From assembly GCA_015486375.1 (NCBI GenBank), contig WFRR01000010.1:1-32551 (forward strand): 32,551 nucleotides of DNA, written 5' to 3'. Made by a program: the position numbers and the translations under genes. The notes below the pieces were generated by a model, which was not told where the DNA came from, ran no database searches, and worked only from the letters and a program-made list of their open reading frames with translations. Positions within the stretch are counted from its first letter, which is position 1, and each line of letters starts with the position of its first letter. This DNA is from Thiotrichaceae bacterium. GTDB taxonomy: Bacteria; Pseudomonadota; Gammaproteobacteria; Thiotrichales; Thiotrichaceae. Of the stretch, positions 7,124 to 29,728 are shown piece after piece.

Positions 7124-8119
7124 TTAAACCCAAGGATTACGATAGGTATTAACGCGTTGACTCCAGCCTGATAGCCAGCGAGCTTCGCCGCTAGAGCGGG
7201 GTGAATTCTGAACACGTCTTTCTAAAACAAAGATAGCGGCATTCGCAAATTCATTTAAAGTATGTGATCCCTGCCGTACAGGGCGCATATTAATCAATAC
7301 TTGTAACACACCCCAGTTTTGACCCTGATAGCCACTGTGCATGCTTAAGCCTTCACCTTTAAAATTAATATAATCAATTAGGGCATAACGTCCACCTGCA
7401 CTATTCATGAGTGCTTCAACGTTACGAATAACATGATTTTTATTTTGTGCAGGAGCCGCTTTGATTAAACGGGGAATAGCGCGCTCTGCTCGTTGTAAAA
7501 TAAACTTTGCTTGTAAATCCCGAGTTTCATAAAGAATTTGGGTTAATTGTTGAATTTGAGGTGTATAACGGGCGCGATTTTGTTCTGATTTTGTTCGCCA
7601 CGGCGCACCGCGTTGCTTTGCTTCCCTAACCCAATAGGGTAAATTAACCCCATTTTGTTCCAAAAAAGACAGAAGCTTTGGAAAGGTATTGCCAAAACGT
7701 GTCCCTCTTCCTTGTGGATACCATGTCCAATGTCCGATTCCCATTGAAGCAAAATTTTCATTGTCATTCCAATGTACCAGTTTATCTTTACTTCCCCCTG
7801 CTTCATTACTAAATATCTTATCGCCAATTAAGCGCAATTCACTGGATGATAAACGTGGCAAGCTTAGGGTGCTATTGCTTGCCATGCGACGCTCGACTTC
7901 TGAGCGTGCGTATTGATTGACATCCGTCATCATACTTTGTGGTGTAGATTGCCAAGCCGTGCGGATTAACGTCGGATTAGAAGCGGGTACAGCTTTCGAT
8001 GCAGGAACTTTAGCAACCGCCGATTTTTTCGGTTTAGGTTCAGCCTCTGGAATAGAAGAACAGGATGCGCCTGATAAGCTCGCGACCAGTAGGATTACGC
8101 TTTTTTGATATTGATTCAT
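7124..8119 (-). CDS. Exported putative lipoprotein of unknown function, possibly a lysozyme-like hydrolase
   Basis: 331 residues. A signal sequence ending SGAS-C20 fits a loose lipobox, and a Pro/Lys/Ala linker (to about 50) precedes the folded domain. The core (about 95-165) has IFSNEAGGSKDKLVHWN then ENFASMGIGHWTWYP, FGNTFPKLL and GVNLPYWV. A glutamate in a Glu-Ala-Gly-Gly turn before a Gly-His-Trp-rich stretch is reminiscent of soluble lytic transglycosylase/lysozyme folds, but I do not recognise the family. The C-terminal part has INFKGEGL and YQGQNWGVLQVL, again like cell-wall hydrolases. AGGG is 10 bases before the ATG. Upstream of the Ala/Pro-rich gene on the same strand, 106 bp apart. 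Confidence 0.7.
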   Translation of the reverse strand: MNQYQKSVILLVASLSGASCSSIPEAEPKPKKSAVAKVPASKAVPASNPTLIRTAWQSTPQSMMTDVNQYARSEVERRMASNSTLSLPRLSSSELRLIGDKIFSNEAGGSKDKLVHWNDNENFASMGIGHWTWYPQGRGTRFGNTFPKLLSFLEQNGVNLPYWVREAKQRGAPWRTKSEQNRARYTPQIQQLTQILYETRDLQAKFILQRAERAIPRLIKAAPAQNKNHVIRNVEALMNSAGGRYALIDYINFKGEGLSMHSGYQGQNWGVLQVLINMRPVRQGSHTLNEFANAAIFVLERRVQNSPRSSGEARWLSGWSQRVNTYRNPWV

Positions 8120-16812: not shown

Positions 16813-16847
16813 ATCGTTTGTTTATGTTTGGAAAGACTTCAAACGAT
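16813..16847 (+). promoter_or_regulatory. Inverted repeat in the leader of the cob operon
   Basis: ATCGTTTG (16813-16820) pairs with CAAACGAT (16840-16847). A second GTTTG (16826-16830) can pair with the same CAAAC arm, so two alternative hairpins are possible. It lies 35 bases before the cobU ATG. No B12 box is present. Confidence 0.4.
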
Positions 16848-16881
16848 CAATATCAATGCAGAAAATTATATTAATTTTTCT

Positions 16882-17430
16882 ATGAAAACACTTATTCTTG
16901 GTGGTGTCCGTTCGGGTAAAAGCCGTATTGCAGAACAACTCGCGCTACAAACTGCCCCTCAAAAACGCCTGATTTATATTGCTACTTCGATGCCTTATGA
17001 TGGTGAAATGCAAGAACGGGTTAAAGAACATCAAGCACAGCGTGCATTATCGGCTTATTCTTGGACAACCATTGAGGAAAAGCTGTACTTAGCGCAAGTA
17101 TTAGCAGAATATTCAGCCGCAGATACTACAATCTTGGTGGACTGTCTGACCCTCTGGATGACTAACCTATTGTGTCATACCGATAAGCAACTGTTGCAGT
17201 CTGAAACTGATGCACTTTTGCAACAGCTGGATGGTATAAAGGGTCAGGTTATTTTTGTTAGTAATGAAACAGGTTTAGGTATTGTGCCAATGAAAAAGTT
17301 AAGCCGTCAATTTGTCGATAAGATGGGCTTATTTCATCAACAACTCGCGGCAAATTGTGATCAGGTCTCTTTTGTTATTGCAGGATTAAGTGTGGCATTA
17401 AAGCCTTCCAATTTAGCTGTAGAGAATTAA
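16882..17430 (+). CDS. cobU: Adenosylcobinamide kinase / adenosylcobinamide-phosphate guanylyltransferase
   Basis: Phosphorylates adenosylcobinamide and transfers GMP to give AdoCbi-GDP, the activated form for nucleotide-loop assembly. The P-loop GGVRSGKS is residues 7-14, with YIATSMPYDGEMQERV.EHQ (which carries the guanylylated His), then DCLTLWMTNLL, SNETGLGIVP, FVDKMGLFHQQLA and IAGLSVALK. The frame extends to a TTG at 16828, but the ATG at 16882 gives 182 residues with the P-loop right at the N-terminus, as in the family (about 180). Only a weak ribosome-binding site is visible. First gene of cobU-cobT, with cobC and cobS following. Confidence 0.95.
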   Translation: MKTLILGGVRSGKSRIAEQLALQTAPQKRLIYIATSMPYDGEMQERVKEHQAQRALSAYSWTTIEEKLYLAQVLAEYSAADTTILVDCLTLWMTNLLCHTDKQLLQSETDALLQQLDGIKGQVIFVSNETGLGIVPMKKLSRQFVDKMGLFHQQLAANCDQVSFVIAGLSVALKPSNLAVEN

Positions 17431-17432
17431 GC

Positions 17433-18539
17433 ATGTGTGAAAATACCGATATAGCATGGTTGAATGATTCGATTGCCACATTAGATAAACAAGCTGTTTC
17501 AGATGCGAGTGATTATCAAAAAAACTTAACTAAACCCCAATATTCCTTAGGCTACTTAGAAGATATTGTATTGCAATTTTCTGCATGGCAAGGGGATTAT
17601 AAGCCAAACTTGGAACATATCCATATTAGTGTTTTCGCAGCCGATCATGGTATTGCTGAGGAGAAAGTCTCTGCCTTTCCACAAGCGGTGACTGCTGAAA
17701 TGGTGAAAAACTTTGTTAATGGCGGGGCAGCGATTAGCGTACTCGCGCGGCATTTACGAGCAAAGTTAGAAATTATTGATGTGGGTGTTAAAAATTTTAA
17801 ACCTTTAGACGGTGTAATTTCGCAACGATCGGGGAATGGCACGGCTAATTTTTTATATAATAATGCTATGTCGGTATCACAATTAGAGCAATCTTTACAG
17901 ACGGGTTATGCAGCAGCACAACGTGCTTATGTAGCTACTAGCCAGATTTTTATTGGTGGTGAAATGGGTATTGCCAATACGAGTTCCGCCACCGCTATCG
18001 CTTGCTTATTATTAGCACAAACACCTCAGCAATTAACGGGTGCTGGAACGGGACTTAATCCAGTAGGCATTCAACATAAAATTTCCATATTGGATCAGGC
18101 TTTGCTGCGTTGTAATGATGCTAAGCATAATGTTGATAAAAATATTGCAACCCAGCAGCAGGCTTTAAAGATATTAGTAATGCTTGGAGGATTTGAAATA
18201 GCTGCATTAACAGGAGCGTATTTACGCTGCTCACAGCTTGGTATTCCTATTCTCGTGGATGGTTTTATTGCCAGTGTAGCGGCTCTATTAAGTATTTCAA
18301 TACAGCCAAAAAGCCGAGATTGGATGTTATTTGCCCATACCTCTGCGGAGCAGGGGCATAAACATATACTTGCGGCTATGGATGCTAAACCTATCCTTAA
18401 TTTAGCCATGCGCCTCGGCGAAGCCAGTGGAGCAGCCGTTAGCATACCCATTATCCAGCAAGCTTTATTGCTACATCATCAGATGGCAAACTTTGCGGAA
18501 GCGGGCGTAACCAACAAAGATGAGGAACATCCTGTTTAG
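17433..18539 (+). CDS. cobT: Nicotinate-nucleotide:dimethylbenzimidazole phosphoribosyltransferase CobT
   Basis: Makes alpha-ribazole 5'-phosphate, the lower-ligand nucleotide of cobalamin. 368 residues. FAADHGIAEEKVSAFPQAVT (68-87) and FVNGGAAISVLAR (94-106) are family motifs, as is GGEMGIANTSSATA (175-188). The catalytic Glu is in RLGEASGA (E330, corresponding to E317 of Salmonella CobT); the family more often reads RLGEGTGA. The ATG is two bases after the cobU stop, so translation is coupled. The dimethylbenzimidazole source (bluB or bza genes) is not in the window. Confidence 0.97.
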   Translation: MCENTDIAWLNDSIATLDKQAVSDASDYQKNLTKPQYSLGYLEDIVLQFSAWQGDYKPNLEHIHISVFAADHGIAEEKVSAFPQAVTAEMVKNFVNGGAAISVLARHLRAKLEIIDVGVKNFKPLDGVISQRSGNGTANFLYNNAMSVSQLEQSLQTGYAAAQRAYVATSQIFIGGEMGIANTSSATAIACLLLAQTPQQLTGAGTGLNPVGIQHKISILDQALLRCNDAKHNVDKNIATQQQALKILVMLGGFEIAALTGAYLRCSQLGIPILVDGFIASVAALLSISIQPKSRDWMLFAHTSAEQGHKHILAAMDAKPILNLAMRLGEASGAAVSIPIIQQALLLHHQMANFAEAGVTNKDEEHPV

Positions 18540-18650
18540 AAACAGTAACCTCAATTCAGAACATTTAAATAACGATCCCAAGTAGTTAATGGTTTGATTA
18601 ATGCCGCATCAAATTCATATTTCGACAGGACGTTTTAGGTAATTAATTTA

Positions 18651-19250
18651 ATGACAACAACGATAATAGAACTACTTCGACACGGTGAAGTAGAAGGTGA
18701 GGAAGTATTTCGCGGCTCAAGCGATACCCTTTTAAGTGACACAGGCTGGGATCAAATGGAAGCGGCTTTAGAAGGACGGGGCGACTGGGATGTACTGATT
18801 AGTTCACCACTACTACGCTGTCAAGAATTTGCTAATCACTTAGCGCAACAACATGGTTTATCTTTACCACTGGTACTTGATCAACGCTTACAAGAAATTG
18901 ATTTTGGCACATGGGAAAATCGCTCTCCGACGGATGTGTTAGAAGAAGATCCTGAATTACTACAACATTGGTGGAATAATCCGACTGAAAGCACGCCGCC
19001 AGAAGGCGAGTCTTTTTTACAATTTAACTACCGTGTATTGGAATGTTGGCAAGCGTTATTAGATAAATATCAAGGCAAAAAGCTTTTATTAATAACCCAT
19101 GCAGGGGTCACACGGACGATTCTAATGCATGTATTGGGTATGCTGGATGAGAATTTATTCCGTCTTGATGTTAACTATGCCAATGTCAGTTGTATTCGAA
19201 TTCATCATGATGAGACGGGCAATTGGGCGAGTCTTATTTCACATGGTTAA
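18651..19250 (+). CDS. cobC: Histidine phosphatase, probable alpha-ribazole-5'-phosphate phosphatase
   Basis: 200-residue phosphoglycerate-mutase-type phosphatase. The phosphohistidine is H11 in LLRHGEVEG. R56 (SSPLLRC) and E82 (LQEIDFGTWE) complete the phosphate pocket, and H150 is in LLLITHAGVTR. Its place between cobT and cobS argues for removal of phosphate from alpha-ribazole-P or adenosylcobalamin-P. Sequence alone cannot tell it from other small histidine phosphatases, so the assignment rests on context. It is 111 bp after cobT and 21 bp before cobS. Confidence 0.85.
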   Translation: MTTTIIELLRHGEVEGEEVFRGSSDTLLSDTGWDQMEAALEGRGDWDVLISSPLLRCQEFANHLAQQHGLSLPLVLDQRLQEIDFGTWENRSPTDVLEEDPELLQHWWNNPTESTPPEGESFLQFNYRVLECWQALLDKYQGKKLLLITHAGVTRTILMHVLGMLDENLFRLDVNYANVSCIRIHHDETGNWASLISHG

Positions 19251-19271
19251 TGGGTCCTAAATTTAGAATCA

Positions 19272-20003
19272 ATGAAAAATATCCTCCATGATTACTTTTT
19301 GGCACAAAGTTTTTTAAGTCGTTTACCGATCCCAAAGAACATTGATTATCAGCCAGAAAGATTGGGGTATATCACCTTTTATTATCCCATTGTGGGTATA
19401 TTGATTGGCTCAATATTAGCCACTATTGCGAGTTTACTTGCTGCTGTTGACCCCCTACTTGTTGCTGTCCTTTTAACTTCTATTTGGGCAGTTATAACAG
19501 GCGCACTACACCTCGATGGCTTAGCCGATAGTGCCGATGCATGGCTAGGAGGGCATGGAGATCGACAGCGCATCTTTGAGATTATGAAAGATCCGCTATT
19601 GGGTACAGCGGGGGTTGTCAGTTTAGTATTAATTTTACTACTAAAAGTTATTAGCTTAAGTTTATTGCTGCAATCTCACGCTTATCTCGACATTATTTTA
19701 ATTGTGGTCACTGCTCGTTTTGCAGCGGTAGCACTGTTATATTTATTACCTGCAGCACAGCAACAAGGTTTAGCTTATCAAGCTAAGAATGCCTTACCGA
19801 GCATCACACCCTATTATTTATTGGCAGTCACACTTATATTGACTGTACTCGCGCCCATGAGCCTATTGTTGATTGCTATTGTTATTTACTTACTTCGACG
19901 CTTTATGTTGCAATCTATTGGTGGTATGACGGGTGATACCTTGGGCGCATCCATTGAAATTTTGGAAGTTGTGGGTTTATTAGCCATCAGCACAGCTTTC
20001 TAG
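19272..20003 (+). CDS. cobS: Adenosylcobinamide-GDP ribazoletransferase (cobalamin synthase) CobS
   Basis: Polytopic inner-membrane enzyme that joins AdoCbi-GDP to alpha-ribazole (or its phosphate), the last stage of cobalamin synthesis. 243 residues and six or so hydrophobic segments. The conserved GALHLDGLADSADAWLGG metal-binding motif is followed by R..IMKDPLLGTAGV and GGMTGDTLGASIE near the C-terminus. Last gene of the cob cluster. Its TAG stop overlaps the folK stop on the other strand through the palindrome CTAG at 20000-20003, so there is no intergenic space for a terminator. Confidence 0.96.
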   Translation: MKNILHDYFLAQSFLSRLPIPKNIDYQPERLGYITFYYPIVGILIGSILATIASLLAAVDPLLVAVLLTSIWAVITGALHLDGLADSADAWLGGHGDRQRIFEIMKDPLLGTAGVVSLVLILLLKVISLSLLLQSHAYLDIILIVVTARFAAVALLYLLPAAQQQGLAYQAKNALPSITPYYLLAVTLILTVLAPMSLLLIAIVIYLLRRFMLQSIGGMTGDTLGASIEILEVVGLLAISTAF

Positions 20004-20957: not shown

Positions 20958-22097
20958 TTAGTCCACTGAAGGGAGAAAATTCATATAACGCTTCACAATT
21001 TTCTTGATTGGGAAAGTATGCTCAATATGTTCTCTTACATCCAACTTCAATTGCTCTCTAATGTCGTCAGGCATCAACAAGAGCTTTTCTATTTCAACTG
21101 CCATTTGTTTATGATCAGATATTTTAACAATCGCGCCTGTATCGTTCACGATTAAGGCAGCATCACCAACATCAGTAGAAACACAAGGTGTTCCACAAGC
21201 CATGGCTTCACAAAGTACATTGGGGAAGGCTTCTGTGACTGAACTTAATAAAAATACATCCAGTGCCGTATAAATCTTTTCAATATCAACCCGTGTTTTG
21301 GCAAAGCTGATGTATTTACTAATATTGTGAGTTTGGATCATTTTCATTAATTCAGCATTGTCCTCTGAGATACCACTACCACAGAGTAGGAAATGAATAT
21401 TTTCATGTTTATCAATTAGGTTTCGAGCAGCTTTGATAAAGCTTTCATGATCTTTCATAGGATCAAAACGGGCAATCATCCCCACCAAGAAAATATTTTC
21501 TGGAATATCAAGTTCTTGGCGGACAGCAAGACGGGCATCTTGATCAATTGTAAAACGTTTTAGATTATAGCCATTGGGAATGACCACGCTTTTTTTCTTA
21601 TCATAATAAATAGATTCATGCACTTCACGGGCTTTTTGTGCCACATAAATAATATGATCAGGAATAAAATAAGAAAATAAGGCTGATACTCTCACCACGA
21701 CACGAGTAGATATTTTTTCTTTTTCAGGCTGCATATAGGCATCCCGAACGCCCCAAATAATTTTGGGAACAGAGGCAAAATAAGCGGCTAAGCCTGCAAA
21801 TAAGCTAGCATGGTGCAACCATGTAAATACCACTTCAGGTTGCTCTTTCTTAATGATTTTTCTTAATTGAAAAAAGCTAGAAAGGTTAGGGCGTGACGCT
21901 TGCATACCTAATACCATGACTTTAACCCCCATTGCTTCTAAACGTTTGCCATAACCCCAATCATCTTTAAGGGAAATAACCACTACATTTTTGCGATTGC
22001 CTTCCTTGATAAGGGTGAATAAAAATGATTCAGCGCCACCATTTTGTAAACTGGTAATAATATGAAGCGTTTTTTTAGGGTTTTTTTGCAGTGACAT
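20958..22097 (-). CDS. GT4-family glycosyltransferase, last gene of the EPS operon
   Basis: 379-residue GT-B fold retaining glycosyltransferase. The N-terminal Rossmann half starts LHIITSLQNGGAESFLFTL, with the Gly-Gly-Ala-Glu acceptor-side loop common in GT4. The C-terminal half has VGMIARFDPMKDHESFIKAA, HFLLCGSG, and the E-x7-E nucleotide-sugar motif in SSVTEAFPNVLCEAMACGTP. Soluble and cytoplasmic, probably membrane-associated; adds a sugar to the lipid-linked repeat unit. Donor and acceptor unknown. AAGGA is 9 bases before the ATG. It follows the flippase gene by 70 bp. Confidence 0.93.
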   Translation of the reverse strand: MSLQKNPKKTLHIITSLQNGGAESFLFTLIKEGNRKNVVVISLKDDWGYGKRLEAMGVKVMVLGMQASRPNLSSFFQLRKIIKKEQPEVVFTWLHHASLFAGLAAYFASVPKIIWGVRDAYMQPEKEKISTRVVVRVSALFSYFIPDHIIYVAQKAREVHESIYYDKKKSVVIPNGYNLKRFTIDQDARLAVRQELDIPENIFLVGMIARFDPMKDHESFIKAARNLIDKHENIHFLLCGSGISEDNAELMKMIQTHNISKYISFAKTRVDIEKIYTALDVFLLSSVTEAFPNVLCEAMACGTPCVSTDVGDAALIVNDTGAIVKISDHKQMAVEIEKLLLMPDDIREQLKLDVREHIEHTFPIKKIVKRYMNFLPSVD

Positions 22098-22167
22098 AAT
22101 TTATCATCCTTTATACATTTTATTTTTATTAATATTTATTATTTTAAGATTTTTTTATCAAATTTCA

Positions 22168-23625
22168 CTAAGTTGATTTCTTATTAAAAAAATTACTCAG
22201 TTTAGGTTGAATAAATTCCTTGACATCATTTCGAATATTAGAAACATTGAATACTAATATTGTACTTAGATAAACAATAGCACCCAGTACGATTTGCACT
22301 AATAACCAACCCCAGCCTCTCATATCATATAATCCACTAATAGCCAAAATCATCACTAAGCTAGCAATCATAATTTTAAGCATTTCCATCTTTGGAATCG
22401 GAAGTGCATAGAATCTTTTGCCAACGTAATAGGTTAAGAGTAAACCCACTAATGAGGATAACATTGTTGCAATAGCTGCCCCTAAGATGCCGTAGATAGG
22501 AATTAAGATAATATTGAGTACAACGTTAACAATAGTGATCACTAACATAATCCACATAAGTTGCACGGTGTTCTTCTTGATTTGGAAAGCCATAGCAAAA
22601 TAGAATGCTTGGGTTGCAAAGAATAATTCTGCGATTGCAAGCCACGGAAAGACTTCCAAGCTACCCTGTAAAAATTCCTTACCAACTAATAGGTACAGTA
22701 AGTTGGGTGAGACCATAATTAGACCCGCGACTGCTGCCAGTGCGAATCCCATAAAGACAGAGGCATATTGTTTTAATTTTTCTTCAAGTAAGGCTTTATT
22801 ACCCTCTTCCAGTGCTTTAAGTACGATAGGATAAGCGGCAACTGATAATGATGACAGTAACATACTTAAGCTGCTACCAATTAAATTTCCTGCTACTGAA
22901 TAAATACCTGCGGCACTGAGACTCTCTAACTGAACAATTAAAAAACGATCTACTGTATTGCTAAATACTTGCAACGTAGTTGCCATTGCGACAGGCAGAC
23001 CATAGATAAATAATGACCTCATTAACTTACGATCTAAGCTCATTGCCGTATAGTATTTCCATATGTCTTTACTCGTGAATAGTATCAGTACGGTATAAGC
23101 AAGTAACAGAGCCAGAATAATACTAATAGGGCCAAAGCCTAAAATGACTAGAACAATGCCGATTGAAATAGAAATAATCGCCCGAAAAGAATTAATCATT
23201 GCATATTCTTTTGCCTTCAGTAAGGAGTTCTTTATTTTCATATTTAAATTAAATAAAGATTGCATAAAGAATAATACAAACCCTGCGATCATAATTTCAT
23301 TAGGAATCGTATAGTACTGGTTAACAATATAAAGTGTAATTGAGAAAATTGCTAATGACACTAGCATAATCAAGTTTACAATGGATGATATACTACCAAT
23401 CAGTACTTGCTTAGTGTACTTTTTCATGTTCCAGAAACGCACTAAGCTCATCCGTAACCAGTCAACTAATAAGGCACTGGCTAACCAGACGACCGTCATT
23501 ACTAAAGAATATAATGCATATTCTTCGGTAGAGAGATAACGGGTATAAACGGAAATAGAAATAATAGCCAATAAAATTGGCACAGCTTCTGCTGCAAGAT
23601 AAAAGCCTGAATGTTTAAGAAGCAT
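22168..23625 (-). CDS. Wzx-type polysaccharide flippase (MOP superfamily)
   Basis: 485 residues, about twelve to fourteen membrane helices, with the MOP/PST pattern: an N-terminal FYLAAEAVPILLAIISISVYTRYLSTEEY, a mid-protein repeat (SLFIYGLPVAMATTLQVFS NTVDRFLI), and LNIILIPIYGILGAAIATM near the C-terminus. Predicted to flip undecaprenyl-PP-linked repeat units across the inner membrane. GAGG is about 10 bases before the ATG. Placed between the Wzy-type gene and the GT4 gene, as usual for Wzx/Wzy loci. Confidence 0.92.
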   Translation of the reverse strand: MLLKHSGFYLAAEAVPILLAIISISVYTRYLSTEEYALYSLVMTVVWLASALLVDWLRMSLVRFWNMKKYTKQVLIGSISSIVNLIMLVSLAIFSITLYIVNQYYTIPNEIMIAGFVLFFMQSLFNLNMKIKNSLLKAKEYAMINSFRAIISISIGIVLVILGFGPISIILALLLAYTVLILFTSKDIWKYYTAMSLDRKLMRSLFIYGLPVAMATTLQVFSNTVDRFLIVQLESLSAAGIYSVAGNLIGSSLSMLLSSLSVAAYPIVLKALEEGNKALLEEKLKQYASVFMGFALAAVAGLIMVSPNLLYLLVGKEFLQGSLEVFPWLAIAELFFATQAFYFAMAFQIKKNTVQLMWIMLVITIVNVVLNIILIPIYGILGAAIATMLSSLVGLLLTYYVGKRFYALPIPKMEMLKIMIASLVMILAISGLYDMRGWGWLLVQIVLGAIVYLSTILVFNVSNIRNDVKEFIQPKLSNFFNKKST

Positions 23626-23673
23626 GGCTAAGCGACCTCATTTATTAATTAACTAATTAGATTTTTATTTTAT

Positions 23674-24855
23674 TTATTGATTCAAGGTTTGCTTTTTGAG
23701 CATAATCCAACAATGAGAAATCATCAGTGCATAAAATGACCATAAAATCGTATTGTCTTGTAAATTAGTGGTTAGTTGAGCAAATAAGAGTTGTACGAGT
23801 AAAATAATTAAAAAGTATTTATCAACCCCTTTTAAACGTAAGATTGAAAAAAGTATTCCAAAGACCAGTGATAGATAAAGAACAAAGCCAATAATGCCAT
23901 ATTCAACTAAAATACTGATATAGGTGTTATGGGCTTCTAAATCCATATGAGCGTTATTTGACATACGAGTAAAAGAATCAACACCCCGACCGATAAAAGG
24001 CTGATCTTTGAATCCATCAAAGCCAATCTGCCATATAACTTCACGTTCATTGAAGTTGCCTGCTTTAGCATTATGCCAAGTGGAAAATACTCGCAGTACT
24101 AATTCTTTTGGAATGTTTTTTATAATAGATCCAATCGATACGATAAATGCAAAGCTAACAATAATTTTTTCGAAAAACTGCATTCGTGATACTTGATAAA
24201 TGCCAAATATAAGCCCCAGTAATAAAATTACAAACCCCATTCGTGAACCTGTTAAAAAGGAGGCACTAATAAAGGCTGGAATTGTGCCTAGAATTAATAG
24301 TCGCAGCCATATTTTCTTATAAAGACTGGAAATATAGAGTGCAAAGGTCATACCAAAACCCAGTGTAATCGCCATTTCATTAGCACCAATATCATAAGCC
24401 GTGTAACGACCACTTTCACCACCCCCCTCTTGAATTTCCATACCAAAGTTATAATTAACCACTCGGGCAAGAAAGAAAATAGCAAGAAATACCGCAATAT
24501 AAGCATGATTTAAACGTTGCTTAGTATTAATCGAATACCAGTAGATAATCAACATGACCATAAAATAGAAATTGAGTAAAAACAGCCGCCAAGCAGTATC
24601 AGCAGGTGTTGTCGTCCAAATATAACTCAGTGATGACCAGAACAAGTAAAAGAAAAACAAGGTGTGGAGACGAGTAAATTGTGGCATTTTCTCGCCTAAA
24701 GCAAAGATCAATAAAACGATTCCAAATGACATCGGTGCAGCACCGATAATTAATGGGCCATATGGCGTATGTAACATTCCATCTAGAGCAACGGTTGTTG
24801 CAACAAAAAATAAGAATAAAGCATAAGATAGCTTTCTAAGCTGCTGTATATTCAT
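23674..24855 (-). CDS. Wzy polymerase / O-antigen ligase-like membrane protein
   Basis: 393 residues with about ten to twelve membrane helices. A large periplasmic loop has GNFNEREVIWQIGFDGF.DQPFIGRGVDSF and EAHNTYISILVEYGIIG, the Wzy_C/WaaL signature in which an Arg and an His act on the lipid-PP-linked glycan. TGSRMGFVILL precedes it. In this operon polymerisation of repeat units is the likely role; ligase cannot be excluded. The frame opens at a TTG at 24870, but the ATG at 24855 (MNIQQLRKLSYA) is the better start. 32 bp after the GINT1-like gene. Confidence 0.9.
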   Translation of the reverse strand: MNIQQLRKLSYALFLFFVATTVALDGMLHTPYGPLIIGAAPMSFGIVLLIFALGEKMPQFTRLHTLFFFYLFWSSLSYIWTTTPADTAWRLFLLNFYFMVMLIIYWYSINTKQRLNHAYIAVFLAIFFLARVVNYNFGMEIQEGGGESGRYTAYDIGANEMAITLGFGMTFALYISSLYKKIWLRLLILGTIPAFISASFLTGSRMGFVILLLGLIFGIYQVSRMQFFEKIIVSFAFIVSIGSIIKNIPKELVLRVFSTWHNAKAGNFNEREVIWQIGFDGFKDQPFIGRGVDSFTRMSNNAHMDLEAHNTYISILVEYGIIGFVLYLSLVFGILFSILRLKGVDKYFLIILLVQLLFAQLTTNLQDNTILWSFYALMISHCWIMLKKQTLNQ

Positions 24856-24887
24856 AACACCATCAATCAATCGTTTTTATTATTAAT

Positions 24888-26453
24888 TTAATAGGCAAAA
24901 ATATCACTAACTGATAAGTTTCCCTCGTGATTATAAGTATGCAGACCTGAAACACGTGAACTCCATTCGGCAGTGTCTTCGTGTATCTTTTTCTCTTTAT
25001 AGTTCTCTGTACTTAATTCAATAATTTCATTGATATTAAGTCCTTTACCATAAATGGCGGCACAAGATTGTGATGGACGATATAACTTACCATTATTACT
25101 AAATATCTTACCCGCAGGCCTTGCATTGGTTGCGTCCGATACGACAGGATTGTTTTTATGAGCTGTCCAATTGTTACCGAGTGGGTTATCACTGTAAAAA
25201 ATATGTAAGTCTTCTGTATTCATGCATTTATCATGACCACAGATAACGCTAAACATCCACCATAGACCGTTATGCTCAATTAATGTTGTATCGCAAGCAC
25301 GCACATCTTGCATGATATTTTTTTGGAATTCCCATTTTTCAGGAAAGGCGTTACATTTATACAGCTCAATGGTTCTATTTTCAGCAGACTCAGGAATCAT
25401 GTAATACGCGTCCTCATACTGAAAAATAAAAGGATAAGAAAGATGGTAGTCTTTTTGTAATATTTTCTTGGGTTTGGTAAAGCTTTTGTCCGCATTCATT
25501 TTGATATAGGAGATATAGCCTTTCCAATCCTTATAGGAGAGTTCTTCGAAAAATATATAGGATTCGTTGTCTTTAATGACAACAAAGGGATCCGCCCAAA
25601 ACATACCCCTCGGAGGAGAGAGCCGATTATAGGTATGAATAGGCGGAGTCTTTAGGTGCTCTTTTGAATGATCTTCGCTATGACTAAATAATAACATCCA
25701 GCGAGTATCAAATGCATAACGGAATACTGCTTGACGCGTATAACGTTTAATAGAAGTTAAATAGTAGGGTATTGATTTAACTTTATTTTCATTAATTATT
25801 TTTTCTTTTTTTAATAAATTTATTGATTTATCAGCAGTTAAGTGTGCTTCTCCATGTAAAGCCAAACGCTCGATCAACATAGGAATAAATAGGCTACAAC
25901 CCCAGAGAATATTTTCTATACTGCTACGTAAGGAAACATGATCCATACCTGATTTCTTTTCATGCAGGATAAATGATTTTTGTTTGAATTTCTCAGCAAT
26001 AATACCTGTACGAATATAACCTTGCTTTTGCATATATTCATATTTACCTACATTTTGTGAGCTTCGATTATTGTTTTCACCGAAGAAGAAACGCCAAATA
26101 CCATACTTTGCCGAAAATGCATTATTTGTTTCAACCTTGCTAGTAGAAAGATTGATAATCATATCATGCTTGACATGCTTAATATCAAACAATGATAGTA
26201 CCGTATTATCGATATTATCAACATTCATATCGTGTAAGGCATGGTAATCCATACCTAACACTTTTCTCTTAAGTAATCGAGGTAAAGTAGATTGAGGGTA
26301 AACTGCATTCGTCCATTTTTTACATTCATCATTTAAATTAATAATATTAACCCCTTCAACATAAGGTGAAGATTTAATATTTTCTATGATGCTATATTTC
26401 CAGATTTCTATTCTTTTATGATCAATAATGATGGTAATATTGAATGCTTGCAT
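24888..26453 (-). CDS. Formyltransferase-like / GINT1-like two-part protein in EPS operon
   Basis: 521 residues, no signal peptide or clear membrane helix. Residues 1-200 resemble the degenerate formyltransferase-like domain found in such proteins (NITIIIDHKRIEIWKYSIIE; KYGIWRFFFGENNN; SLRSSIENILWGCSLFI). Residues about 275-521 look like the five-bladed propeller-like N-domain of glucosamine inositolphosphorylceramide transferase (GINT1): MFWADPFVVIKD, YIFFEELSYKDWKGYIS, HLSYPFIF, YYMIPESAENRTIELY, DTTLIEHNGLWWMF, ARPAGKIF, YRPSQSC. Bacterial examples sit in polysaccharide loci with unproven activity. A sugar-modifying or transferring role is inferred. AAAGGAT is 9 bases before the ATG. Confidence 0.75.
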   Translation of the reverse strand: MQAFNITIIIDHKRIEIWKYSIIENIKSSPYVEGVNIINLNDECKKWTNAVYPQSTLPRLLKRKVLGMDYHALHDMNVDNIDNTVLSLFDIKHVKHDMIINLSTSKVETNNAFSAKYGIWRFFFGENNNRSSQNVGKYEYMQKQGYIRTGIIAEKFKQKSFILHEKKSGMDHVSLRSSIENILWGCSLFIPMLIERLALHGEAHLTADKSINLLKKEKIINENKVKSIPYYLTSIKRYTRQAVFRYAFDTRWMLLFSHSEDHSKEHLKTPPIHTYNRLSPPRGMFWADPFVVIKDNESYIFFEELSYKDWKGYISYIKMNADKSFTKPKKILQKDYHLSYPFIFQYEDAYYMIPESAENRTIELYKCNAFPEKWEFQKNIMQDVRACDTTLIEHNGLWWMFSVICGHDKCMNTEDLHIFYSDNPLGNNWTAHKNNPVVSDATNARPAGKIFSNNGKLYRPSQSCAAIYGKGLNINEIIELSTENYKEKKIHEDTAEWSSRVSGLHTYNHEGNLSVSDIFAY

Positions 26454-26505
26454 AGTAATATCCTTTTATTTATTATCAGTATTTGGATGTTTGTTATTTA
26501 AATGA

Positions 26506-27603
26506 TTATTTTTTGTGGATATTGTTATTAACAGTATCACTTATCTTTGTTTTACTCGCAAATCGAATAATTCTTTTGTATATATAAACATAAACTACTG
26601 CAAAATAAATAAATAATGCGATGAGTGCTAAGGTATTTTCACGTAACACGATGGCAGGGAATACCGTAATCAAGCTAAGTAACCACATTACAGGTGAAGT
26701 CATTGAATTTGAAAGATAATTTTCAGAACGATTGAATATCTTACAAATAATACGATTATGAACCAACATATGTAAATGCAGCTTATCAGGTACCATTGCT
26801 GATTGACCACGCACAATCCGCTTTCTATAAATGCTGAATAATGTTTCCATAATAGGATAGGCTAATACAACCACAGGGAACCAAGGTGAAATATCAGTAT
26901 TTCTATACACTAATAAGATAGACATTTCGGCTAATGCAAAGCCAATAAAGTATGCTCCGCCATCACCCATGAATATCTTTCCAAAAGGAAAGTTTAGGAT
27001 CATAACGCCTGCAATAGACATTGCTAGTGTTAAAGACATCGCCATAATAAGAGAGTCATCACTTAAAAATGCGGCATAACTGATAGCAAGCGCACTGATA
27101 ATACTCACACCGGGCATTAAACCGTTAAAACCATCAATAATATTAATTGATTGGGTAATACCACTGACGATTAATAAGGTTACTAAAAAAGAAATAATAG
27201 TAACTTGTAACATAACATCAACGAAATCGAGTCCTAAACTACGGATTTCTGCATTAAGTAACCAAAATGCCAATGCACTAGACGCAATGGTTAAAATTAA
27301 ACGAATTTTCGCGGATACATTGCCTGTAATATCTTCAATAATACCTGCAAGAAAAATAGGAGTTGCTGAGGCAACAAACATTAATGGGTAAGTAATATCA
27401 TCCATATAAAATGAAAGTAGTAATACACCGCAGATAAAACTAAAGAAAACGGAAATACCACCAATACGGGGGATCGGTTGAGTATGAAACTTTTGATCAC
27501 CATCAAAATTGGAGTCCATACCGAAGTCAACTATTTTGCTGAATTTTATTATATAAAATGTAACAAAGAGTGATATTGCAAGAACTAGAAAGTGGGATAG
27601 CAT
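26506..27603 (-). CDS. Polyprenyl-phosphate HexNAc-1-phosphate transferase (WecA/WbpL/MraY family)
   Basis: Polytopic inner-membrane enzyme that starts the repeat unit by placing a sugar-1-phosphate on undecaprenyl phosphate. 365 residues with about ten to eleven helices. Motifs: HTQPIPRIGGISVF (40-53), GIIEDITG (88-94; the usual Asp-Asp pair is Glu90-Asp91), NIIDGFNGL (154-162), FPFGKIFMGDGGAYFIGF (205-222) and DKLHLHM with the H-x-H pair (273-279). The Arg/Lys-rich loop before DKLHLHM is the sugar-recognition region. A near-ideal AGGAGG lies 8 bases before the ATG, stronger than other genes here. A 246-bp gap upstream may hold a second promoter. Confidence 0.93.
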   Translation of the reverse strand: MLSHFLVLAISLFVTFYIIKFSKIVDFGMDSNFDGDQKFHTQPIPRIGGISVFFSFICGVLLLSFYMDDITYPLMFVASATPIFLAGIIEDITGNVSAKIRLILTIASSALAFWLLNAEIRSLGLDFVDVMLQVTIISFLVTLLIVSGITQSINIIDGFNGLMPGVSIISALAISYAAFLSDDSLIMAMSLTLAMSIAGVMILNFPFGKIFMGDGGAYFIGFALAEMSILLVYRNTDISPWFPVVVLAYPIMETLFSIYRKRIVRGQSAMVPDKLHLHMLVHNRIICKIFNRSENYLSNSMTSPVMWLLSLITVFPAIVLRENTLALIALFIYFAVVYVYIYKRIIRFASKTKISDTVNNNIHKK

Positions 27604-27849
27604 GTCAGATTCCTCCTGCTGCTATATAACCATTGGTAAAATGGTTTTGGTTAAAATTTAATTTAACTTATTTTGAACAAATACAAGCCTTAAAGGTACT
27701 GCTTTTAGATTATAAATATTTTTTTATGGACGTATGGTTGTATTAAATGAAGTGATACCGCTGGTATACTTTAAACAACCTAATACGAAAATATAATCAA
27801 TTTATTTAAGCTTGGTAAAATTTATTTTTATTTTTTATTCAGAATAAGT
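27604..27849. other. 246-bp gap inside the EPS operon
   Basis: AT-rich, no gene. It contains a 7-bp hairpin close to the next gene's start (AACCATT 27628-27634 with AATGGTT 27639-27645, read on either strand). It also holds a small ATACC-GCT-GGTAT inverted repeat (27755-27767). No clear -35/-10 pair was found, but the size of the gap and the strong Shine-Dalgarno site after it suggest separate control of the downstream five genes. Confidence 0.4.
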
Positions 27850-28845
27850 TCATATATTATTTATTTTATTAGAGATTTCAGCCATCGTTAATGACTGCAT
27901 ATTGTATTGAAGCTTTAACTTTTGATAGTGTCGTAAAATACTTTCTAAAAATTGAATCCGTTCTACCACATTATTACCGAAATCTTCGGGATGCCACCAT
28001 AAATGAAAAATTTCACCTTGTTTTGCAGCATGTTCCATTGCCTTGCAAATACGTTTCTTTTTAGCCGAATTTAAAAAAGACCAGCTTTGTCCATGAGAAC
28101 GTAATTGACGACTGGATGGAAGGTTATAAGGCATATTGGGTTTAGTCTTATTCTTAACATCCTGTAATGAATAAGTATGAAAGCCTGATAAATTAATTAA
28201 GGCATCAAACTGTTTTAATACACGTTTAAAGAAAGGAATATTTTCTTCACTGGAAGCCCGATATAACCAACTGTCTTCATTACCACGATAACTACTAATA
28301 CCTGCTTGCTTCAAAATGGATAAATAATCACTATTCCATTGATTACGAGGAAAGACCAAACTTTCCAGTTTGATGTCCTTCGTTGTTGCAATATTAACCG
28401 CCGCTTGTATATCAGCAGCAAAAGCGGCTGTTGAAGGCGTATTTTCTAAACAGTAATAATGTGAAAAGGTATGACTGGCAATTTCTTGATAATCAGTCAC
28501 TTTAATTAAATCTAATAAAGCAGGTGCAAAATGGTAAGCATTATTCCAATCAGCACTTTTATCCGCATAGTGACGTAAATACTGATAGGCATTCAGTTTC
28601 TTGTTCAAATATTGCGGTTCGATTTGTGGATAAAATGCAGAAGCAGCTTGTGCATCTTGTGCAAAGAGTAGCCCAACACTTGCCCATGTTGCATGAACTT
28701 GATATTGCTTAAATAAACGCAACATCTCTCGAACCGCTTCAGGTGTTCCCTGTAAATCTTCTGAAAATTCATCTGCATTACAGACATCTAACATGCCCCA
28801 GTACAGTTCAAAGTCCAAAGAAATAGTAAAGATTCCTTGCTTCAT
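27850..28845 (-). CDS. NodB-type polysaccharide deacetylase
   Basis: 331 residues, no signal peptide, so cytoplasmic if the start is right. The metal-binding set of the carbohydrate-esterase-4 fold is visible: D11 in TISLDFELYWG (the usual D-D is D-F-E here) and H125/H129 in EIASHTFSHYYC. VFPRNQWN and HLWWHPEDFG supply later conserved positions. Expected to remove acetyl groups from an N-acetylated or O-acetylated sugar of the polysaccharide or its lipid-linked precursor. It begins 8 bases after the export-lipoprotein stop, so it is in the same transcript. Confidence 0.9.
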   Translation of the reverse strand: MKQGIFTISLDFELYWGMLDVCNADEFSEDLQGTPEAVREMLRLFKQYQVHATWASVGLLFAQDAQAASAFYPQIEPQYLNKKLNAYQYLRHYADKSADWNNAYHFAPALLDLIKVTDYQEIASHTFSHYYCLENTPSTAAFAADIQAAVNIATTKDIKLESLVFPRNQWNSDYLSILKQAGISSYRGNEDSWLYRASSEENIPFFKRVLKQFDALINLSGFHTYSLQDVKNKTKPNMPYNLPSSRQLRSHGQSWSFLNSAKKKRICKAMEHAAKQGEIFHLWWHPEDFGNNVVERIQFLESILRHYQKLKLQYNMQSLTMAEISNKINNI

Positions 28846-28853
28846 GATATTGA

Positions 28854-29603
28854 TTACTGTGATGCTGTTGCACGTGGAGCAGGTGCAAATGGGGTTACGA
28901 AAGGGGTTAATACACCTCCGAATAATTCAATACCACGTTTAGTCTTATAGTAGGCATCTGCTCTGTGAATAACGATTCGATCATCATTGTGTAAAATCGG
29001 GTCTTTCGCTGCACCATTGCGAATTGCCTTCAAATTGACATGATAACGGCTCACTGCACCTGACGGAGCTTTTCGGAATAAGAAAATTTTATTGATATTA
29101 GCAAATTCACTTAGCCCACCTGAGGTAGCAATGGCTTGTAATAAAGTTCCACCGCCTTTAACAGGGTACACACCCGGTTTAACTGCAAAACCTTCAATGG
29201 TAACCCGTCGTTGGGTCGCTTCTTTAACCAGTACGGTAACCTGAGGGTTCTTTAAATAACGGCTAGCTAAACGTTGTTCAATGCTATTTTCAAGCTGTTC
29301 TGAGGTTAAACCTTTGGCTCGAACACTACCAATTAAGGGTAATGAAACATGACCACTATCACTAACACGTACCCCAATTTTTGATAAATCAGGCACTTTA
29401 TAAACTTGAATGTCCAGTAAATCTTGCGCTTGGATCTGATCGTTCTGTGGCACACTACTGGGTGCTTGTGCAAGGGAGACTTGTTTACTACTACTAAATG
29501 AGTCTGTTGTACCCGCTGGGTAATTTTTATAATCTTTAGCACCTGTACAACCGCCAATAAATACGCAAGTACTGATTCCCAATACGATGTTTCTGGAAAC
29601 CAT
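28854..29603 (-). CDS. Wza-like polysaccharide export lipoprotein, short form
   Basis: Outer-membrane/periplasmic export channel subunit. Signal peptide with lipobox FIGG-C19. A Poly_export domain (about 55-130: QNDQIQAQDLLDIQVYKVPDL, VSLPLIGSVRAKGLTSEQL, NPQVTVLVKEA) is followed by one SLBB domain (about 132-212). At 249 residues it lacks the second SLBB and most of the C-terminal part of E. coli Wza (379). A TTG at 29618 opens the frame, but AGGAG overlaps it and sits about 8 bases before the ATG at 29603. First gene of the EPS operon. No Wzc-type co-polymerase follows. Confidence 0.93.
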   Translation of the reverse strand: MVSRNIVLGISTCVFIGGCTGAKDYKNYPAGTTDSFSSSKQVSLAQAPSSVPQNDQIQAQDLLDIQVYKVPDLSKIGVRVSDSGHVSLPLIGSVRAKGLTSEQLENSIEQRLASRYLKNPQVTVLVKEATQRRVTIEGFAVKPGVYPVKGGGTLLQAIATSGGLSEFANINKIFLFRKAPSGAVSRYHVNLKAIRNGAAKDPILHNDDRIVIHRADAYYKTKRGIELFGGVLTPFVTPFAPAPRATASQ

Positions 29604-29728
29604 CTTTTCTCTCCTCAAGTGTTCTTATAATTAATTATTTAGATTGTTAAGATTGTGTTTATTTATAAGGTTTGGGTAAACCAAGCCATCTGCACAAACT
29701 AAATAATTTTGTAATTCTTGTAATTTAA

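Follow-up and report, generated by a model that had tools for sequence, protein, structure and literature searches.

The window, the whole 32,551-nucleotide stretch of DNA from a Thiotrichaceae bacterium that was analysed here, harbors a gene cluster at positions 20958-29618, encoded entirely on the minus strand with gaps of 8-246 bp, in the order of an OPX protein, a deacetylase, a WecA-like transferase, the protein P0001 under study, and Wzy-like, Wzx-like and GT4-type proteins (Table 1). The flippase (PF13440), the polymerase (PF04932) and the priming transferase (PF00953) occur together, making this a Wzx/Wzy-type polysaccharide cluster. The top NCBIfam models for the WecA-like protein and the Wzx-like flippase were ECA_wecA and HfsF, respectively, both below the cut-off. 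No Wzz/PCP chain-length protein was found among the scanned cluster proteins, and one may be encoded elsewhere in the genome. The G+C content was 34.9% in the cluster versus 39.7% in the first 20 kb of the window, and folB and folK come after the cluster.

Table 1. Features of the P0001 locus, with positions in the window
Feature	Position	Strand	Details
OPX polysaccharide export protein with SLBB domain	28854..29618	minus	PF02563, E=3.3e-23
Polysaccharide deacetylase-like protein	27850..28845	minus	PF01522, E=5.1e-8
WecA-like polyprenyl-phosphate sugar-1-phosphate transferase, putative priming enzyme	26506..27603	minus	PF00953, E=8.2e-29
P0001, formyltransferase-like domain and GINT1_N propeller	24888..26453	minus	521 aa, single unbroken ORF
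Formyltransferase-fold domain lacking the active-site His and Asp	25824..26453	minus	Residues 1-210; model, Foldseek, VIA
Decayed motif YGIWRFFFGENNNRSSQNVGKY	26040..26105	minus	Residues 117-138; alignment A2; intact relatives, YGVWSYHHGDNxVNRGGPxGFW
Five-bladed propeller	24891..25703	minus	Residues 251-521; Pfam GINT1_N at 284-494; VIA, 9gph_B
Wzy-like polymerase/ligase	23674..24870	minus	PF04932, E=2.7e-18; 17 bp from P0001
Wzx-like flippase	22168..23625	minus	PF13440/PF01943
GT4-type glycosyltransferase	20958..22097	minus	PF00534, E=2.6e-29

A ribosome-site-like AAAGGA sequence is located just before the ATG of P0001, and the opposite strand of the same region, for which the original prediction had named no strand, is crowded with stops. 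P0001 has no strong membrane segment (peak 19-aa hydropathy of 1.4). Its sequence gave no match to NCBIfam at E<=0.1, nor to solved structures at E<=10 in a direct search. The model of the whole protein (pLDDT 88.9, pTM 0.91) consisted of two confidently folded halves.

The C-terminal half matched the Pfam family GINT1_N (PF24793) with an E-value of 1.7e-46 and 159.1 bits, the cut-off being 27. Among the VIA matches listed, the closest fold was that of a GH130 mannoside phosphorylase (9gph_B; Z 21.7, rmsd 2.8), with 235 residues aligned over model residues 267-520 at an identity of 14%. In the same list, GH159 and GH62 enzymes were within about 1.3 Z of this match and GH43 (4qqs_A; Z 19.5, rmsd 2.9, 234 aligned) and GH117 enzymes were close behind. 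The domain has the five-bladed propeller fold common to GH43 and GH130, which is also the fold of GH32, GH62 and GH117 glycosidases. No GT108 enzyme was among the structure matches listed for the propeller, an absence that excludes nothing.

For comparison within the family, P0001 was aligned with one protein each from 76 of 80 loci (alignment A2, 77 rows). These loci are the best 80 of 572 relatives, and A2 therefore leans towards P0001; L078, L089 and L119, which are cut off, and L102, a near copy of L092, were omitted. By their record titles, the 76 named relatives in A2 (best 80 of 572) fall into 13 named phyla, with three rows unplaced and the title Aquificota doubtful. Another alignment, A1, held 32 full-length proteins and excluded short forms, fragments and duplicates. 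The GH43 profile PF04616 matched 54 of the 77 A2 proteins (best 80 of 572) at E<=0.1 with a best E-value of 1.4e-10, whereas P0001 itself had no match at this threshold.

Residues 1-210, when modelled alone (model m5bda724f1891; pLDDT 86.4), matched the sugar N-formyltransferase WbkC best in Foldseek (5vyu_A, E=4.5e-5) and 3q0i best in VIA (Z 13.9, rmsd 3.2, 166 aligned). All of the 50 VIA matches listed, with Z of 12.1-13.9, were formyltransferases or formyl-THF-hydrolase relatives, HypX included. The N-terminal half has the formyltransferase Rossmann fold of the PF00551 family, sharing it across all 210 residues with WbkC, the N-domain of ArnA, FdtF, QdtF and methionyl-tRNA formyltransferase, at identities of 4-12% to the aligned structures listed. 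The PF00551 profile did not match P0001 at E<=1. Within A2 (best 80 of 572), this profile matched 6 of 77 proteins at E<=0.1 (best 0.0017), NCBIfam fmt matched 14 (best 9.2e-5), and another NCBIfam formyltransferase model matched 12 (best 4e-5). The A2 profile also weakly matched formyltransferases among solved structures (4iqf, E=0.0098; ArnA, 0.4).

Formyltransferases possess an Asn-His-Asp catalytic set. P0001 reads Arg-Phe-Gln at these three columns and differs from the sugar N-formyltransferases and methionyl-tRNA formyltransferase in having neither the catalytic His nor the Asp, while its intact relatives carry the motif order of sugar N-formyltransferases, HHGDN..RGGP...TG...LDxG. Both His and Asp were kept in 27 of the 77 A2 proteins (best 80 of 572), and the column of the classical Asn in these 27 was Ser in 26 and Asp in one. 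None of 21 proteins (P0001 and 20 relatives) of the window's family, to which Thiothrix, Leucothrix and Cocleimonas belong, kept the pair, and His was found at its column in only one. On a quick propeller tree, which does not fix the direction of change, the label 'intact' needs 11 changes, and at least four are forced by well-supported branches. The protein L085 from Thiotrichales, with an intact motif, adjoins the main decayed clade of the family with modest support (85). The family proteins L120 and L131 group elsewhere, having lost the pair too, and other parts of the tree show the loss as well. For propeller identities of 0.40-0.60, the N-domain identity was 0.421 for 323 intact pairs versus 0.192 for 684 lost pairs, the pairs not being independent of one another. 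This difference (42.1% versus 19.2%) at matched propeller divergence shows that the N-domain was freed from strong constraint and the propeller was not, so that the constraint falls on the propeller.

The original prediction had described a GINT1-like C-terminal half joined to a degenerate formyltransferase without an obvious Asn-His-Asp set, and both halves proved to be of these kinds, the degeneration now being expressed in numbers. Its reference to plant sphingolipid glycosylation held as a Pfam family match, but this label is merely the name of the family, whose fold is common to many glycoside-acting enzymes. Structure prediction of the two halves, one of the checks proposed with it, gave the propeller and the formyltransferase fold, each confidently folded. 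Another check was conservation mapping of the three motifs WADPF (residues 286-290), FFEE (301-304) and YPFIF (340-344), and it found W286, A287, D288, P289, E303 and P341 to be invariant among the 77 A2 proteins (best 80 of 572), with Y340 being Tyr in 75 of them.

The residues D288, E303, H337, S339, E355, D388, R445, R459, Q462 and H505 were each conserved in 77 of 77 A2 proteins (best 80 of 572). According to the strands of the P0001 model, D288, H337, S339, D388, R445 and H505 stand at the inner-strand starts of blades. D288, H337, S339, E355, D388, R445, Q462 and H505 were also kept in seven distant relatives, consisting of four plasmid-borne and three short forms, in which R459 was not universal. 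Judging from propeller geometry, the invariant residues probably line one pocket. The catalytic set of GH43 is Asp, Asp and Glu, and a mapping of this triad onto the propeller was dropped as the blade registers compete. The top GH43 profile alignment was shifted by one blade (prob 96), and the in-register alignment came second (60-71, depending on the cutting of the alignment). With these two registers, the presence of an Asp-Asp-Glu set in P0001 could not be shown, and R445 or D288 are not established as equivalents of catalytic residues. The profile similarity to GH130 was weak (hhalign prob 18), and a catalytic correspondence with GH130 is likewise not established. Should the in-register alignment be correct, the two Asp positions of GH43 would be taken by D288 and D388, and that of the acid Glu by Arg445. 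According to PMC4599007, phosphate is bound in GH130 by basic residues, and their replacement by carboxylates accompanies hydrolysis, a difference that sets phosphorylases apart from hydrolases. By analogy, Arg445 at the acid position of an in-register alignment would favour phosphate-activated donors over hydrolysis.

GINT1_N was detected in 43 of 95 searched relatives, in 38 of 299 Pseudomonadota genomes and in none of 14 control genomes. A GT4 gene lay on the same strand within about 1.6 kb in 24 of 28 long forms of the family, the other four being without one, and Wzx and Wzy neighbours were found in 14 and 12 of the 28, respectively. These 28 were taken from 33 family long forms, with the window itself, G038, G039, G048 and G059 outside the set. 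The counts are lower bounds, as many loci reach a contig end and the neighbour profiles, seeded from the window, miss divergent Wzx/Wzy proteins. In 20 arbitrary 20-kb stretches of family genomes, hand-picked at round positions and 19 of them from genomes with contigs of at least 2 million bases, GT4 occurred anywhere in the stretch in two, and Wzx and Wzy in none. For the 80 named loci (best 80 of 572), which overlap with the family set, GT4, Wzx and Wzy were nearby in 57, 26 and 24, respectively. Among short GINT1_N proteins of about 390-400 aa without a full N-domain (L053-L059), six of seven adjoined a GT4 gene and none had Wzx/Wzy matches nearby. In Colwellia echini, a form with the intact motif was located inside an XrtA/PEP-CTERM exopolysaccharide cluster. 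In another bacterial relative, of 701 aa (L202:232-2337), a single chain combines the GINT1_N propeller with a GT28 C-terminal glycosyltransferase domain (E=1.4e-9).

The WecA-like protein of the window was matched at E<=1e-20 in only 6 of 57 genomes, and 5 of 57 had a match to the deacetylase, its own genome included in both cases. P0001 is therefore an outlying member of its family, residing in an unusual cluster. The original prediction had correctly placed the gene between the priming transferase and Wzy and had taken this position to point to a step in making the repeat unit. Such a role is plausible, given that GT4, Wzx and Wzy genes accompany the relatives far above their frequency in arbitrary stretches. 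The position itself is particular to this genome, as the adjacency to WecA is not a conserved feature.

P0001 is a formyltransferase-fold domain devoid of the catalytic His and Asp, fused to a five-bladed propeller that carries a set of invariant polar residues. Its features hint at an uncharacterised step in the building of bacterial surface polysaccharides, and from titles and abstracts of the open-licence literature we recognised no paper dealing with GINT1_N proteins of bacteria, their function or their biochemistry. The most likely reading, which we put forward tentatively, is a putative glycosyl transfer catalysed by the propeller during repeat-unit assembly. P0001 would then be a cytosolic enzyme with the propeller as the catalytic part. 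The donor would be a nucleotide sugar or a sugar phosphate, whose glycosyl group would pass to an undecaprenyl-PP-linked intermediate before the latter is flipped by Wzx. In the intact relatives, the N-domain may place a formyl group on an amino sugar belonging to the glycan under assembly. The lineage of the window would have lost this chemistry, with the N-domain staying as an acceptor-binding or structural helper.

Propeller catalysis is consistent with the two folds, the invariance of the residues in 77 of 77 A2 proteins (best 80 of 572), the constraint on the propeller, the GT4/Wzx/Wzy neighbourhood, the GT28 fusion and the lack of a strong membrane segment. In plants, GINT1 is the enzyme that attaches GlcN(Ac) to a sphingolipid, and it possesses a GT64 domain. 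P0001 has the propeller domain in common with it, scoring far over the Pfam cut-off, but has the formyltransferase-fold domain instead of GT64, ending with the propeller and giving no GT64 match at E<=1. The GT28 fusion and the GT64 domain of plant GINT1 tie GINT1_N to glycosyl transfer but are also compatible with a role in binding. GT108 dual transferase-phosphorylases are reported in PMC8950772 and PMC8476585 to share the propeller fold of GH130. GT108 and GH130 enzymes carry out comparable chemistry, in GH130 with the phosphate held by basic residues, and GT108 is the precedent for transfer by a propeller. Against propeller catalysis, a fold likeness at about 6-17% identity between model and structures shows no reaction, the model is ligand-free, the blade register relative to GH43 is ambiguous with a weak GH130 profile similarity, and 4 of 28 family loci are without an adjoining GT4.

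The invariance of the residues would also fit pure glycan binding, and a non-catalytic propeller is a possible though doubtful alternative. Such a propeller would bind a glycan or lipid-PP-glycan and hold the repeat unit, while it is being built, for the GT4 encoded next to it, with the formyltransferase relic as a scaffold. The frequent adjoining of GT4 to both long and short forms (24 of 28 and 6 of 7), an N-domain already without its catalytic pair and the GT28 fusion all agree with this role, but most of the invariant residues are acidic, basic or His, which in our judgement exceeds the usual need of a binding module. The closest folds among the matches listed are glycoside hydrolases and phosphorylases, and many A2 proteins (best 80 of 572) match the GH43 profile, as expected if the propeller trims or proofreads the repeat unit or a free oligosaccharide in the cytosol. 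We consider this unlikely, since P0001 lacks a GH43 match, the acid Glu position would be Arg445 if the in-register alignment is right, and the gene keeps company with assembly genes.

It is very unlikely that formylation of an amino sugar persists in the N-domain by way of a rearranged active site, with the propeller merely presenting the substrate. The formyltransferase fold is kept and the deacetylase of the cluster could produce a free amino group, but P0001 is without both His and Asp and the N-domain identity collapses in the lost lineages. A holdfast-like adhesin made by the cluster, with P0001 as one of its dedicated enzymes, was also considered on account of the HfsF model of Wzx and the surface-attached filaments of Thiothrix, as described in PMC9455678. 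The small numbers of genomes matching the WecA-like protein and the deacetylase mean that the cluster is not common to the attached genera, and this role was demoted as an improbable one that is not supported.

In many bacteria, GINT1_N proteins are encoded close to polysaccharide genes. Should the propeller be catalytic, the annotation of many Wzx/Wzy clusters misses a step, and plant GINT1 has to be reinterpreted in its N-terminal half. As N-domains occur naturally in intact, half-lost and lost states, the contribution of either half can be put to the test. A broader proposal, which we regard as speculative, is that GINT1_N constitutes an unrecognised family of propeller-fold glycosyltransferases that parallels GT108 and occurs across a dozen bacterial phyla. 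Early in bacteria, it would have been fused to a sugar N-formyltransferase with the same glycan as its substrate, and the formylation half would then have decayed repeatedly. Plant GINT1 would in that case have two catalytic domains, not one.

Several other features were observed in the relatives and the window. In 24 of the 28 family long forms, the GINT gene is immediately preceded on its upstream side by a gene with a weak, partial EAL match (e.g. L075:8368-9942 and L118:8021-9649, the latter also with PAS). This gene is absent in the window; a link to c-di-GMP is possible. In the Thiothrix caldifontis cluster, a GH123-like protein is encoded between the GT4 and Wzy genes (L075:12776-14560). 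On a Rhizobium plasmid, a GINT1_N protein gene (L154:9035-10759) directly adjoins genes for NRPS/PKS and a phosphopantetheinyl transferase. At 7124-8119 of the window, the minus strand encodes a 331-aa protein with a lipoprotein-like start and no Pfam match at E<=0.001, downstream of the gene for NAD-dependent DNA ligase. The region 16828-20003 contains cobU, a DBI_PRT phosphoribosyltransferase gene (cobT-like), a histidine phosphatase gene and cobS, forming a run for the cobalamin lower ligand beside acnB.
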